Shown piece after piece: positions 38,744 through 55,805 of a stretch of DNA of 62,282 nucleotides; the stretch's first letter is position 1; each line of letters begins with the position of its first letter. Made by a program: the position numbers and the translations under genes. The notes under the pieces are model-generated. The model saw only the letters and a list, made by a program, of their open reading frames with translations, ran no database searches and was not told the origin of the DNA. The stretch is from Chloroflexota bacterium. Lineage in GTDB: Bacteria > Chloroflexota > Anaerolineae > Anaerolineales > Villigracilaceae. The DNA is taken from assembly GCA_016235425.1 (NCBI GenBank), contig JACRLC010000038.1, positions 1 to 62,282 of the forward strand. The letters are read 5' to 3'.

Positions 38744-40639
38744 ATGCGAGTCATTGGCACAGCCGGTCACGTTGACCACGGGAAATCCACGCTCATCGCC
38801 GCGCTCACAGGCACACATCCCGACCGCCTGAAAGAAGAGCAGGCGCGCGAGATGACCATCGAACTCGGCTTCGGCTGGCTCACACTTCCCAACGGTGAAG
38901 AGGTCGGCATCGTGGATGTGCCCGGCCACCGCGACTTCATCGAAAACATGCTCTCCGGTATCGGCGGAATTGACGCCGCGCTCCTCGTCATCGCCGCCGA
39001 TGAAGGCGTCATGCCGCAGACGAAGGAACATCTCGCGATATTGGATTTGTTGCAGATTCCCGCTGGATTAATTGTTCTGACAAAAACAGACCTCGCCTCA
39101 GACTCAGGGTGGCTTGATCTCGTTGAAACAGACATTCGCGCCGCTGTCAAAGATACCGTTATGCAAGACGCCCCCATCCTGCGCGTCTCCGCCAAAACCA
39201 AAAGCGGACTCGATTTACTAATTACCAATCTCCAATTGCTTCTCCAACAAAAACCCGCGCGCCTCGACCTGGGCCGCCCGCGCCTCCCCATTGACCGCGT
39301 CTTCAGCATGAGCGGATTCGGCACCGTCGTCACCGGCACACTCAGCGACGGTCATCTCGCCATCGGTGACGAAGTGGAAATCCTGCCTTCGCACCAAAGA
39401 GGCCGCGTGCGCGGACTTCAGACTCACAAGAAAAAAGAAGAGACCGCCATTCCCGGCTCGCGTACCGCGGTGAATATTTCCGGTGTCAATACCGAGCAAA
39501 TCCAGCGCGGCGAAGTCGTCGCGCATCCCGGCCAATACCAGACCACCCGCAGATTGGACGCGCGTTTTCGTTTGTTGAAAGACGCTTCTTCATCCCTCAA
39601 ACATTCCAGCGAAGTGAAATTCTTCGTCGGCGCGAGCGAAACGATTGCAAACCTGCGCCTGCTTGGAACCGAAGAAATCAAACCCGGCGAAGAAGCCTGG
39701 ATTCAACTCGAACTGCGTGACGAAGTCGTTGCCGTGCGTGGGGATCGCTACATCCTTCGGCGTCCATCACCCGGCGAAACCCTCGGCGGCGGCGTGATTG
39801 TGGATCACCAGCCCAAAGGCCGCCACAAACGCTTCGACGAAAATGTGCTGAAATCCCTCGCGTCCCTCGCACAAGGCTCGCCCGCCGACGTTTTGCTCGA
39901 AGCCGCGCTTGCGCTCAATGCCGCGTCCATCAAGGAAATCGCCACGCGCTCGCGGCTGGAATCCGAAAATGCAGAATCAGCTTTGAAGGAATTAATCGAA
40001 TCCGGCCAACTCATCCTGCTCGAAGAAGGCGAGCCAAAGATTACAAGCGACATTCTGGCTGCCGCGCTCCCCCACTGGAACGCGTTGAACGGTAAAATTT
40101 TGCAGATCGTTGAGTCCTATCACAAATCCTATCCGCTTCGCCGCGGCATCCCGCGCGAAGAACTCAAGAGCAAGCTCAAATTATCGCCGCGCGTTTTCAA
40201 CGCCATTCTCACGCAACATGCAGCACGCAACACGCTTATAGATTCGCGGGGCGTGGTATCCAAATCTGGGCATGAGATCAAGTTCGATAGCGGCCAGCAG
40301 GCCAAAGTCCAGGGATTGATGCGGAAGTTTGAGGCAAATCCATTTGGGCCGCCAAGCGTCAAGGAAAGTCAAGCCGAAGTCGGCGAAGAAGTCTTCGATG
40401 CGTTGATTGAGTCGGGTGAGTTGATCACGGTCTCGCAGGATGTCGTTTTCAGAAAACAGGATTATGATTTGATGGTGAAAAAAATCCGCGGCGCCATTCA
40501 GCAAAAAGGACAGGTTACGCTCGCCGAAGTGCGCGACATGCTGGACACGACCCGCAAGTATGTTCAGGCATTGCTGGAATATCTTGATGCGACCAGTGTG
40601 ACCATACGGGATGGCGATTATCGGAAGCTGCGTTCCTAA
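38744..40639 (+). CDS. selB: Selenocysteine-specific elongation factor SelB
   Basis: Brings Sec-tRNA(Sec) to UGA codons that have a SECIS hairpin. EF-Tu-like GTPase: GHVDHGKST (residues 8-16), switch EMTIELGFGW, DVPGHRDFI, TKTD. Beta-barrel domains 2 and 3 follow (RVFSMSGFGTVVTG). The C-terminal half (about 390-631) contains winged helices that bind the SECIS; the last one ends TRKYVQALLEYLD. The 631-residue length is normal. selA, selD and the Sec tRNA gene are not in this window. The Sec gene at 54661-55140 is its clear client. Near codon 490 it contains a short heptamer repeat (40211-40238). Confidence 0.95.
   Translation: MRVIGTAGHVDHGKSTLIAALTGTHPDRLKEEQAREMTIELGFGWLTLPNGEEVGIVDVPGHRDFIENMLSGIGGIDAALLVIAADEGVMPQTKEHLAILDLLQIPAGLIVLTKTDLASDSGWLDLVETDIRAAVKDTVMQDAPILRVSAKTKSGLDLLITNLQLLLQQKPARLDLGRPRLPIDRVFSMSGFGTVVTGTLSDGHLAIGDEVEILPSHQRGRVRGLQTHKKKEETAIPGSRTAVNISGVNTEQIQRGEVVAHPGQYQTTRRLDARFRLLKDASSSLKHSSEVKFFVGASETIANLRLLGTEEIKPGEEAWIQLELRDEVVAVRGDRYILRRPSPGETLGGGVIVDHQPKGRHKRFDENVLKSLASLAQGSPADVLLEAALALNAASIKEIATRSRLESENAESALKELIESGQLILLEEGEPKITSDILAAALPHWNALNGKILQIVESYHKSYPLRRGIPREELKSKLKLSPRVFNAILTQHAARNTLIDSRGVVSKSGHEIKFDSGQQAKVQGLMRKFEANPFGPPSVKESQAEVGEEVFDALIESGELITVSQDVVFRKQDYDLMVKKIRGAIQQKGQVTLAEVRDMLDTTRKYVQALLEYLDATSVTIRDGDYRKLRS
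40211..40238. repeat. Heptanucleotide array inside selB
   Basis: ACGCAAC, ATGCAGC, ACGCAAC, ACGCTTA, four 7-mers in the selB coding frame, encoding part of TQHAARNTLID between two winged-helix domains. Confidence 0.55.
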
Positions 40640-53529: not shown

Positions 53530-54564
53530 TCAGGATCTCACCAACTTCTGCCCCTCTTTGCCATCCTGCACCTGCCAGCCGCGCGCGGCGATTTGATCGC
53601 GCAGCTTATCCGACTCAGCAAAATCCTTTTGGGCGCGGGCGGCCACGCGTTGCTCGGCCAGGGCGAGCACATCATCGGGCGGCGCATCATCTTCGAGCGG
53701 CGGCGCGTCGACGGCCATGTCCCATGCCTCTTTGGAAATGCCGTTTTGCCCGGATTCAGGAAACCGAAACTCGCCCAATTCCATCAAACCGAATTTCGCG
53801 CCCGAGGGATAAATCTCCGGGTTGCATTCGCGGACCAATGACACAGAGCTGACTCCGCTCACTTCGCATTGACCAGTTTCAAAGTCCAGAATAAGACCCG
53901 TGTGTTCGTCCAACCCAACGGTTGTATTTTCGGCGGGCAATAAGCCGCACCATTGGGCGAAACGCTCCAGCCCCATGAAACAGCGGCTCGTATCCAAATC
54001 CGCGCCGCCTTCGGCGTTGTTCCAATGCGAGACAAACGAAAGATGCAACCCGAAATCGGCGAAGAGATTCAGTCCCTCTTTCACGTGGACATCCTCACCC
54101 ACCTTGTAGATTTCATAGACGGGCAATGCCCATGCCCCAACGGAAATGGCCGCGGCAGAAGCAAAGACGAGCGTCGCGCCGAGGCGATGCCGCGCTTTGA
54201 TCAAATCCCAGGCGAGCGTGCCTCTCAATTGGCGGATCGCATACGTGGGACTCCCCGCTCCCAGAAAGATCATATTGGCATAAAGCAAAGGTTTCAGGAT
54301 TTCAGGATCATCCGGGCTGAAATCGGTGCCGAGCTTGCGCGCCGGAACCACATCAATGACCGGTTTGTAATTTTGCAGGCGGGTCTTGAGAAATTCACCC
54401 ACACGCCCCGCGACCTGATCCGAATTCAATTCGAAGCCTGCAGGCGTTTCAAGCAGTGCGATGCGAAGCGGCTGAGGCAGTTGCCGCGCCAGAGATTCAA
54501 AAACGCGGCCGCCAGCCAGCGAGGTCTCGCCTGAGCCGAGGAAGGCAATTTGTCCAAGTTTCAT
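53530..54564 (-). CDS. Peptidase S51/cyanophycinase-like protein with a CysRS-type tail
   Basis: I used the ATG at 54564 (GGTGA upstream). Residues about 1-230 resemble the class I glutamine-amidotransferase-like S51 fold: GQIAFLGSGETS, FLGAGSPTYAIRQL, and FASAAAISVGAWALP where the nucleophile elbow is expected. The last 47 residues, ALAEQRVAARAQKDFAESDK followed by LRDQIAARGWQVQD, closely match the C-terminal extension of cysteinyl-tRNA synthetase. No aminoacylation domain is present. Whether this tail binds tRNA-Cys is unknown. Confidence 0.65.
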   Translation of the reverse strand: MKLGQIAFLGSGETSLAGGRVFESLARQLPQPLRIALLETPAGFELNSDQVAGRVGEFLKTRLQNYKPVIDVVPARKLGTDFSPDDPEILKPLLYANMIFLGAGSPTYAIRQLRGTLAWDLIKARHRLGATLVFASAAAISVGAWALPVYEIYKVGEDVHVKEGLNLFADFGLHLSFVSHWNNAEGGADLDTSRCFMGLERFAQWCGLLPAENTTVGLDEHTGLILDFETGQCEVSGVSSVSLVRECNPEIYPSGAKFGLMELGEFRFPESGQNGISKEAWDMAVDAPPLEDDAPPDDVLALAEQRVAARAQKDFAESDKLRDQIAARGWQVQDGKEGQKLVRS

Positions 54565-54660
54565 GTAAGTCACCGTTGTCTCAAACTTCGGAAGCCCATT
54601 CGCGAATCATAGAAACCTGGGCGCGCTACAAAAAACTTCCGAAGTCTCTTTTTGGAATTA

Positions 54661-55140
54661 TCACTTGGACGCGCCGGTTAGTTCATCTATTACGTCGAGA
54701 AGCGTTTCGTTATCCGGGATATCAGACATGGAGAGGCCGTAATGAGCATAACGGATGCGCCCATCGCCATCCATCACGCAGACCAACGGCATCCGCCCCA
54801 ATTTCATGATGTTGACTTCCTGCCTGTACGTGCGTGCAATTTGATGATCCGGGTCGGCAAGACCGATGTAGGGAATGTTTTCATCTTCCCAATAGCGCTG
54901 GAACGCAGGCGCGTCGTTCGGCCCAACCGCGAGAATTTCCACGCCGCGTTTCGTGAATTCGGAATAACCGTCTCTCATGCGCGCCAACTGCGCGCGGCAG
55001 AACGGTCACATAAAACCGCGCAGGAACGCAAGCACGACCGGCTTGCCGCGATAATTCGAGAGGCGCACACAACGGCCTTTTGTATCGAGCAGTTCAAAGT
55101 CCGGCGCGATTTCGCCGGGGTGGATGATGCCAGGTTTCAT
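54661..55140 (-). CDS. Selenocysteine-containing peroxiredoxin-like protein (AhpC/TSA family)
   Basis: 159 residues with selenocysteine at position 45, encoded by TGA at 55008-55006. The fold is thioredoxin-like AhpC/TSA: PGEIAPDFELLDTKG, LSNYRGKPVVLAFLRGFM, then U45-P-F-C48, then RMRDGYSEFTKRGVEILAVG, and the C-terminal MSDIPDNETLLDVID. Without readthrough the frame splits into two pieces, each with clear AhpC/TSA similarity. U45-x2-C48 replaces the usual C-x2-C. It overlaps the UDGb gene by 4 bp (ATGA). selB is encoded in this window. Likely an antioxidant enzyme in the cytoplasm. Confidence 0.9.
54972..55002 (-). promoter_or_regulatory. Bacterial SECIS element
   Basis: On the minus strand, GCGCGC (54995-54990) pairs with GCGCGC (54984-54979) around the loop AGTTG (54989-54985). 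Below a 3-nt internal bulge, TTCT (55002-54999) pairs with AGAG (54975-54972). The loop starts 17 nt after the TGA, which matches the spacing of known bSECIS hairpins, and it contains the GU needed for SelB binding. Confidence 0.75.
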
Positions 55141-55805
55141 GCTTCTTCGACCAATTCCTTCGCCTTTGCCCAAATCTCGTCGAACATTTTGACCGTCAAC
55201 TTGCCTGTCTGTGTATTCTGCTGGCTGGGGTGATAGGAAGCCAGTAACCAGCCGCCAGTGATCAGTTTGCAGGCCGCGCCGTGAGCAAACTTTATGCCCG
55301 AATCTTTGATGAAGAATATCCGCAGAATTCTCTCGAACGCGATGCGCCCCAGGCACACGATCACTTTAGGCTGGATGATTTCGATCTCGCGCTCAAGATA
55401 TGGCTGGCAATTGTTTAATTCTTCGGGACGCGGCTTATTGGCGGGCGGCGCGCAACGACCGGACGCCGTTATGTAAACATCTTTCAACACGAGGCCATCG
55501 CTTCGGGACTCCGACGAGGCCTGATTCGAAAAACCCGCGCGGTGGAGGGCCGGATAGAGAAAACCGCCCGAGGCATCACCCGTGAATTGACGGCCTGTGC
55601 GATTCGAGCCGTGCGCGCCGGGAGCAAGTCCAACCGCGAGGATGCGCGCCTTCGGGTCGCCAAATCCGGGGACAGGTTTACCCCAGTATTCCCAATCCTG
55701 GTATGCCTTACGTTTTGTCCGCGCCACTTCCTCGCGCCAGGCAACGAGGCGCGGGCATTTGCGGCAGGCGATGATTTCATCGTTGAGGGAGGAGAGGGAG
55801 GGCAT
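55137..55805 (-). CDS. Uracil-DNA glycosylase, family 5 (UDGb)
   Basis: Removes uracil and related damaged bases from DNA. The active-site motif is VGLAPGAHGSNRTGRQFTGD (residues 58-77), typical of UDGb. Cysteines C14 and C17, C118 in GRCAPPA and C133 are the expected ligands of a [4Fe-4S] cluster. The C-terminal SYHPSQQNTQTGKLT is the second motif. Its coding sequence includes four heptamers of the CAGTAAC type (55242-55269) in the ACKLITGGWLLA part. It is co-transcribed with the selenocysteine peroxiredoxin. Confidence 0.93.
   Translation of the reverse strand: MPSLSSLNDEIIACRKCPRLVAWREEVARTKRKAYQDWEYWGKPVPGFGDPKARILAVGLAPGAHGSNRTGRQFTGDASGGFLYPALHRAGFSNQASSESRSDGLVLKDVYITASGRCAPPANKPRPEELNNCQPYLEREIEIIQPKVIVCLGRIAFERILRIFFIKDSGIKFAHGAACKLITGGWLLASYHPSQQNTQTGKLTVKMFDEIWAKAKELVEEA
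55242..55269. repeat. Heptanucleotide array inside the UDGb gene
   Basis: CAGTAAC, CAGCCGC, CAGTGAT, CAGTTTG, four 7-mers that differ mainly in the last three bases, encoding CKLITGGWLLA on the minus strand. Confidence 0.55.

Follow-up and report, generated by a model that had tools for sequence, protein, structure and literature searches.

A predicted selenoprotein gene split by ORF calling and its neighborhood

The window analyzed here, that is, the entire stretch of 62,282 nucleotides of a contig from a Chloroflexota bacterium (GenBank JACRLC010000038.1), contains on its minus strand a frame that is opened by the ATG at 55140, includes an in-frame TGA at 55008-55006 and ends with the TGA at 54663-54661. 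Mechanical ORF listing breaks this gene into two pieces, one of 116 aa with a GTG start (55006-55356) and the other of 108 aa with a TTG start (54661-54987). Both the frame and the two fragments to be expected from gene callers had been pointed out in a previous sequence-only reading of this DNA and are confirmed here. The gene, the RNA elements predicted within it and the associated genes are the following:

54661-55140, minus strand: gene for a selenocysteine (Sec)-containing, peroxiredoxin (Prx)-like protein, 159 aa plus stop, with Sec45 in the motif UPFC
55006-55008, minus strand: in-frame TGA, predicted to be decoded as Sec; the same TGA is found in 129 of 130 family loci, the window included
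54979-54995, minus strand: predicted SECIS core hairpin GCGCGC-AGUUG-GCGCGC, 6 bp, -10.7 kcal/mol, loop at +17
54964-55009, minus strand: extended fold around the core, -24.4 kcal/mol, z -3.15 (folded stretch 54960-55010)
55137-55805, minus strand: uracil-DNA glycosylase (UDG) superfamily gene directly upstream (PF03167)
53530-54573, minus strand: conserved downstream gene with a C-terminal CysS_C domain (PF23493, 24 bits, cut-off 23)
38744-40639, plus strand: selB, Sec-specific elongation factor (TIGR00475, 334.3 bits, cut-off 242.25)

The 159-aa protein obtained by joining the two parts, in which the active-site stretch reads R-G-F-M-U-P-F-C, matches the AhpC-TSA family of Pfam (PF00578) with 95.7 bits (cut-off 26) and the Redoxin family (PF08534) with 74.9 bits (cut-off 26.6). 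The PF00578 match extends over residues 8-131 and spans the TGA, in accord with the earlier claim that the AhpC/TSA homology continues beyond this codon. The query protein used for searches and structure prediction (P0001) carries Cys in place of Sec and one extra last residue that stems from the real stop TGA. Judged from the sequence, 54661-55140 encodes a single selenoprotein rather than two truncated ORFs, and the split introduced by mechanical ORF calling is hereby corrected. The true stop of the gene is itself a TGA, followed at once by TAA (tandem stop at 54658-54663, minus strand), in the same gene whose internal TGA appears to be recoded.

The stop of the UDG gene overlaps the ATG of the Sec gene (ATGA), which suggests coupled translation in the window genome. 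Most syntenic relatives also have the UDG gene upstream and in the same orientation, but its distance is 50 nt or less in only 16 of 63 cases. The CysS_C-tailed gene lies directly downstream in the relatives, with a median gap of 8 nt over 64 loci. Outside the CysS_C domain, the product of 53530-54573 has no Pfam match above the cut-off; its start (GSGET) presumably recalls peptidase S51/cyanophycinase. Between the Sec gene and this downstream neighbor, there is a perfect 10-bp inverted repeat (54585-54594/54636-54645), a possible terminator or regulatory site.

Conservation of the TGA and the selenocysteine-decoding machinery

A search of 152 genomes of the same family yielded matches at E<=0.001 in 151 of them, ordinary peroxiredoxins included. 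The fetched set consists of 130 strong matches from 108 genomes, the window included (two further TGA-bearing matches among those listed were left out); the Sec codon is TGA in 129 of the 130 loci and TGC in one, and every one of the 108 genomes holds at least one TGA copy. The closest relative found, a protein with 78% identity from another genome, has the same TGA. The mechanical ORF listing, which does give two fragments, is what would be expected of a pseudogene or a miscall, with the TGA a real stop or a misread TGC or TGG; given that the TGA is kept across 108 genomes, the closest relative included, and that protein conservation goes on past it, this explanation is rejected and its probability is, in our estimate, practically negligible.

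Beyond the family, 47 genomes in a phylum draw of 400 (family members included) have a match at E<=1e-25, with TGA in 49 of the 50 matches listed for this draw. Named genomes gave 225 relatives, of which the best 80 were kept, by title 79 Chloroflexota and one Deltaproteobacteria (L216); TGA is present in 79 of the 80 and TGC in one. The relatives thus keep the TGA almost throughout, and most rows of the alignment also retain a SECIS-like hairpin.

The genome that was scanned (5.0 Mb, 109 contigs, 99.57% complete) encodes tRNA-Sec (selC; 70 bits, above the Rfam cut-off, and likewise called tRNA-SeC, anticodon tca, by ARAGORN), selA (546.8 bits) and selD (353 bits; L010, G000:C20). The selD gene itself contains an in-frame TGA, behind which there is a hairpin with the loop GGAC at +18. 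The sequence-only reading had located SelB correctly, and the window selB is the only SelB match in the genome at E<=1e-60. That reading hinged on the presence of selA, selC and selD, all three of which were found; with selB, the Sec-decoding trait is complete. Among 15 family genomes taken from the 44 without a close homologue of the Sec gene, 14 have SelB, so the Sec gene is dispensable for keeping the Sec trait.

Given the complete Sec machinery, the positioned hairpin after the UGA and the presence of Cys in the Sec column of the two closest non-Sec homologues (L086 and L243), it is very improbable that the TGA is read through as another residue, such as Trp, with no selenium; this alternative, to which the open frame and nothing further would point, was rejected.

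Protein family, fold and predicted chemistry

In alignments with PrxQ/Bcp-type proteins (including rows L253-L257), Sec45 aligns with the Thr of the peroxiredoxin motif PxxxTxxC, and Cys48 with the peroxidatic Cys. The sequence RGFMUPFC does not conform to the motif PxxxTxxC/U, as the Pro is absent and the Thr is replaced by Sec, and assignment to the classical peroxiredoxins by motif was therefore rejected. The sequence-only reading, which named the protein a selenocysteine peroxiredoxin, was right with respect to the Sec and to the Prx/AhpC-TSA fold, whereas the name peroxiredoxin is loose, with Sec45 in the place of the Thr. A better name is Prx-like thiol:disulfide oxidoreductase of the UxxC type, for the predicted activity. 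The AlphaFold2 model, with Cys in place of Sec, is a confident Prx fold (pLDDT 88.9), and nearby solved structures in the PDB are those of Sulfolobus Bcp, mycobacterial AhpE and ResA.

UxxC 'Prx-like thiol:disulfide oxidoreductases' have been described as a known kind of selenoprotein (PMC13188914, PMC9312934), and 'Prx-like 1' as a selenoprotein from ocean metagenomes (PMC2398784). By description, the window protein resembles these in the PF00578 domain, the single Sec in UxxC and the bacterial SECIS; a 'Redoxin family protein' UxxC family is listed as well. For the window protein, PF00578 scores above the cut-off, and the Sec of UxxC is encoded by an in-frame UGA conserved in relatives. Unlike the described proteins, it belongs to a Chloroflexota subfamily with the C-terminal signature SDIPDN. 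No NCBIfam model exceeds its cut-off on this protein, the best being SelL_rel_redox (64.5 against 120). With the Sec peroxiredoxins (TxxU)/PrxU, the window protein shares fold and superfamily, but in those proteins Sec takes the place of the peroxidatic Cys, according to PMC13188914, whereas the window Sec lies three residues before it; the PrxU model scores 37.1 bits against a cut-off of 270. The ResA/TlpA thiol-disulfide oxidoreductases have a close fold and a CxxC-type motif in the same place, with Cys in the first position where the window protein has Sec, and the ResA model gives 59 bits against a cut-off of 170.

For this protein, we infer a scheme that covers Sec insertion in vivo, the catalytic cycle, the donor and the substrate. 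SelB with Sec-tRNA would bind the hairpin 16 nt past the UGA at 55008-55006 and place Sec at residue 45; the Sec45 selenolate would then attack the substrate (a peroxide or a protein disulfide), Cys48 would resolve Sec45 as a Se-S bond, and a thioredoxin-like donor would reduce this bond. A true peroxiredoxin chemistry, with peroxidatic attack at Cys48 and Sec45 only modulating or resolving, could be suspected from the alignment of Cys48 with the peroxidatic Cys of PrxQ/Bcp-type proteins and from Bcp and AhpE being the best fold matches; in view of the missing Pro and Thr of PxxxTxxC and of Sec being the first residue of a motif of the CxxC type, like that of ResA, which is also a strong match, we regard it as rather doubtful and favor the attack by Sec45.

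The hairpin downstream of the UGA

The loop AGUUG of the core hairpin occupies positions +17 to +21 downstream of the UGA, with a UGA-loop spacer of 16 nt. The earlier claim that the loop lies 17 nt downstream thus stands for the loop start, whereas the accompanying claim that the GC-rich hairpin begins 3 nt after the UGA has to be corrected: the core stem begins 11 nt after, and the weaker outer stem alone reaches back to the UGA and partly includes it. This outer stem of the extended fold is not common to all relatives. Compared with dinucleotide shuffles, the z values are -2.76 for the core, -2.06 for the 39 nt after the UGA (-19.1 kcal/mol) and -3.15 for the stretch that includes the UGA.

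The bSECIS model, as laid out in PMC13188914, involves an apical loop of 3-9 nt, an upper stem of 4-16 bp, a G at loop position 1 or 2, with G or U usually next to it on the 3' side, a distance of 16-37 nt from the UGA to the loop, and an MFE of -7.5 kcal/mol or lower. The window hairpin, with its 5-nt loop, 6-bp stem, AGUUG sequence and the energies given above for the core and for the 39 nt, falls within these limits, its 16-nt spacer being at the lower edge, the shortest that the model allows. Among 5000 synonymous-codon shuffles of the window hairpin, 17.7% fold as well (p 0.177, not significant), a weak result attributable to the residues RAQLAR, which already favor GC.

Two registers of the hairpin

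The 245 loci examined correspond to 178 distinct ones with 167 TGA, 6 Cys and 5 Thr codons in the Sec column; nine of the non-Sec rows (L249-L257) were chosen as controls from the weaker family-search matches, so the non-Sec share is not a frequency. Groups A, B and C were set by loop letters at fixed positions. The hairpin loop of 72 Sec rows is in the +17/18 register (AGUUG encoding part of RAQLAR, or GUU in the RASLAR variant), which is that of the clade of the window, and 79 Sec rows have an AGUU loop in the +26 register (UGGCGC-AGUU-GCGCCA, MAQLR), which is found elsewhere in the phylum and in a paralogue. The remaining 16 Sec rows are in neither register, most of them having the best hairpin at +23 to +26 with other loops; 7 of these rows have a best hairpin without the bSECIS loop G, so their SECIS was left unassigned. 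Given that the letter-set group A equals a 71-row clade of the tree plus L081, the +17 group was not picked from inside the clade.

Codon conservation of the +17 rows peaks at the hairpin. In the 72 rows, homozygosity of codons +5 to +8 (GCG CAG TTG GCG) is 1.0, 1.0, 0.89 and 1.0, the values for +6 and +7 being partly circular with the definition of group A, and +5 and +8 lying outside it; for comparison, 23 conserved codons from the range -12 to +40, with +3 to +12 excluded, have a mean of 0.46 and a maximum of 0.77. In the 79 +26 rows, the frozen codons are again GCG-CAG-TTG, at +8 to +10 (0.97, 1.0 and 1.0), with +9 and +10 partly circular and +8 outside the definition of group B. The same nine letters thus are common to both registers, three codons later in the +26 rows. 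Pairing in the assigned register, likewise partly circular, amounts to 98.8% of the cells for the +17 rows and 98.7% for the +26 rows; the swapped and slid registers served as a further control on the grouping, and pairing in the swapped register is 66.4% for the +17 rows at +26 and 40.9% for the +26 rows at +17. Among 75 distinct rows of the +26 register, 6 have two-sided changes in the stem, affecting 3 of its 6 pairs; three of the four covariation measures were reached by 0 of 500 shuffles and the fourth, further pair types, by 29 of 500. There is no two-sided covariation in the +17 stem among 67 distinct Sec rows.

The observed hairpin energy is below the mean of synonymous shuffles in 72/72 +17 rows, 79/79 +26 rows and 12/16 other Sec rows, and p is below 0.05 in 27/72, 45/79 and 5/16, respectively. 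Hairpins of -7.6 kcal/mol were also seen in 2 of 11 non-Sec control rows. Considering these controls and the p of 0.177 for the window, hairpin energy alone was rejected as evidence of a SECIS. The hairpin of the single gene is only moderately unusual, and the strong evidence for a putative SECIS is comparative, namely, the retention of the TGA and the peak of codon conservation; SelB is predicted to bind the window hairpin. Together with the Sec machinery, these observations support the earlier interpretation of a selenoprotein with its SECIS.

Some rows depart from the general pattern. In three rows of group A (L015, L050 and L068), the best-scoring hairpin is located elsewhere. In L083, L090, L099, L103 and L108, there is no hairpin of at least 4 pairs with a loop start at 16-18 or 25-27, and the best hairpins start at +23 or +24. 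L216, from the MAG labelled Deltaproteobacteria, has GGUU at +26 and can alternatively form a strong hairpin at +15; this homologue may reflect transfer or mis-binning.

In the +26 hairpin, the segment UGGCGC at +20 to +25 forms the 5' arm; in the +17 hairpin, it supplies the end of the loop and the 3' arm. The segment is present in 69/72 +17 rows and 72/79 +26 rows. It is found in only 2 of the 16 other rows, and the rows that bridge the two registers lack the shared arm in its exact form. In 36 of the 72 +17 rows, at least 4 pairs can still form at the old register, a count made without a control for codon bias.

Thirteen genomes contain both registers. Since a single SelB match at E<=1e-60 was obtained in each of them, both registers are most likely read by one SelB. 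At the syntenic locus, one homologue (L086/L202) encodes Cys; its hairpin, which is in the +17 register, consists of five pairs and a loop containing AGUU, and its genome also holds a Sec paralogue (L122) and SelB. The stem letters differ from the usual Sec form on both sides at 3 of 5 pairs, and the hairpin is too weak (-3.8 kcal/mol) for the bSECIS model and differs from the fold that its 39 nt adopt at minimum energy. Remnant SECIS elements in Cys homologues are already known (PMC1794560); the L086/L202 hairpin resembles these apart from its changed, weak stem and may be a single case of a fossil SECIS.

Direction of the proposed shift

In a quick tree of the 178 rows, with the SECIS codons masked and few columns for the number of rows, 75 of the 175 inner branches are open, and the main +17 clade of 71 rows has an SH-aLRT of 99. 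This clade sits within the +26 background when the tree is rooted on PrxQ-type rows or on distant +26 rows, and the fewest changes between registers on this tree is 2. A focused 61-row tree recovers the +17 representatives as one clade (97/98) and the RAHLAR-type rows with L081, L083 and L086 as another (96/95). Joining these two clades is not rejected (p 0.49), with a likelihood 0.13 better, whereas L081, L083 and L086 can be placed with the main clade at a cost of 3.30 log units (AU p 0.40). L081, the +17 row outside the main clade, reflects either a second shift or shared ancestry.

Gene order is in accord with the trees. Among the 80 named loci, 58 are in the +17 register; the flank contains the UDG gene as well as the CysS_C-tailed gene at 54 of them and one of the two at the other 4. 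Both neighbors are also present at the locus of the Cys row and at 6 of the 8 Sec loci with other loops, the other two having UDG only in one case and neither gene in the other (L216). At the 13 named +26 AGUU loci, neither gene was found in flanks of 2.5 kb or less. All 127 neighbor hits are on the strand of the Sec gene. Judged by gene order, the +17 clade is therefore connected with relatives whose hairpins are at +23 to +26, and its genes seem to be positional orthologues of the RAHLAR-type genes. In the 13 genomes that have a +26 AGUU gene in addition to a +17 gene, the former seems to be a paralogue.

These observations suggest that the SECIS position in the window's clade is derived, three codons nearer to the UGA than in the rest of the family. 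The reading that we favor, and consider probable though not beyond reasonable dispute, is that the SECIS slid by nine nt within one syntenic lineage while the UGA stayed fixed, that the loop codons (Ala-Gln-Leu) were carried along, such that RNA recognition rather than enzyme function dictated these residues, and that one SelB reads both registers. In such a shift, UGGCGC would change roles, from the 5' arm of the old hairpin to the loop end and 3' arm of the new; the Ala-Gln-Leu codons would travel with the loop bound by SelB. A compensated pair of indels was also considered as the cause, but point substitutions appear simpler, given that there is no net length change between U and Phe+17 and that the bridging rows (RAHLARLRDD) align without gaps.

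Separate gains of a SECIS in two Cys-type ancestors, as opposed to relocation of one, would be compatible with the weakly resolved deep forks of the tree and with the absence of a recognizable bSECIS loop in some of the other rows. We nevertheless consider such gains unlikely because Cys forms are rare among close homologues (1 of 130 family loci; 1 of the 50 matches listed for the phylum draw), the loop AGUU and the codons GCG-CAG-TTG are common to both registers, and the +17 rows nest in the +26 background under either of the two roots. The main interpretation, of which we are highly confident as a whole, is that of one gene for one selenoprotein: SelB and Sec-tRNA, acting on the hairpin, would insert Sec45 into a thiol:disulfide oxidoreductase with a Prx fold, and the SECIS is in a derived position.

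Implications

In the open-licence literature, as covered by titles and abstract openings on bacterial SECIS, fossil SECIS, position change, SECIS with UDG and coding constraint, we found no description of SECIS relocation inside one gene lineage, and few papers on selenoproteins were found for the lineage of the window. The analysis presented here indicates that, in Chloroflexota, this redox protein is widespread, nearly always contains Sec, and has conserved neighbors. The SECIS in two registers amounts to a natural experiment, in which a single SelB and a single gene family are combined with the same loop at two distances from the UGA and the amino-acid cost of the move is visible. The two registers allow tests of how Sec insertion depends on spacing and on the sequence of the hairpin and, likewise, of how an RNA element in a coding region may move without an intermediate that loses the protein.
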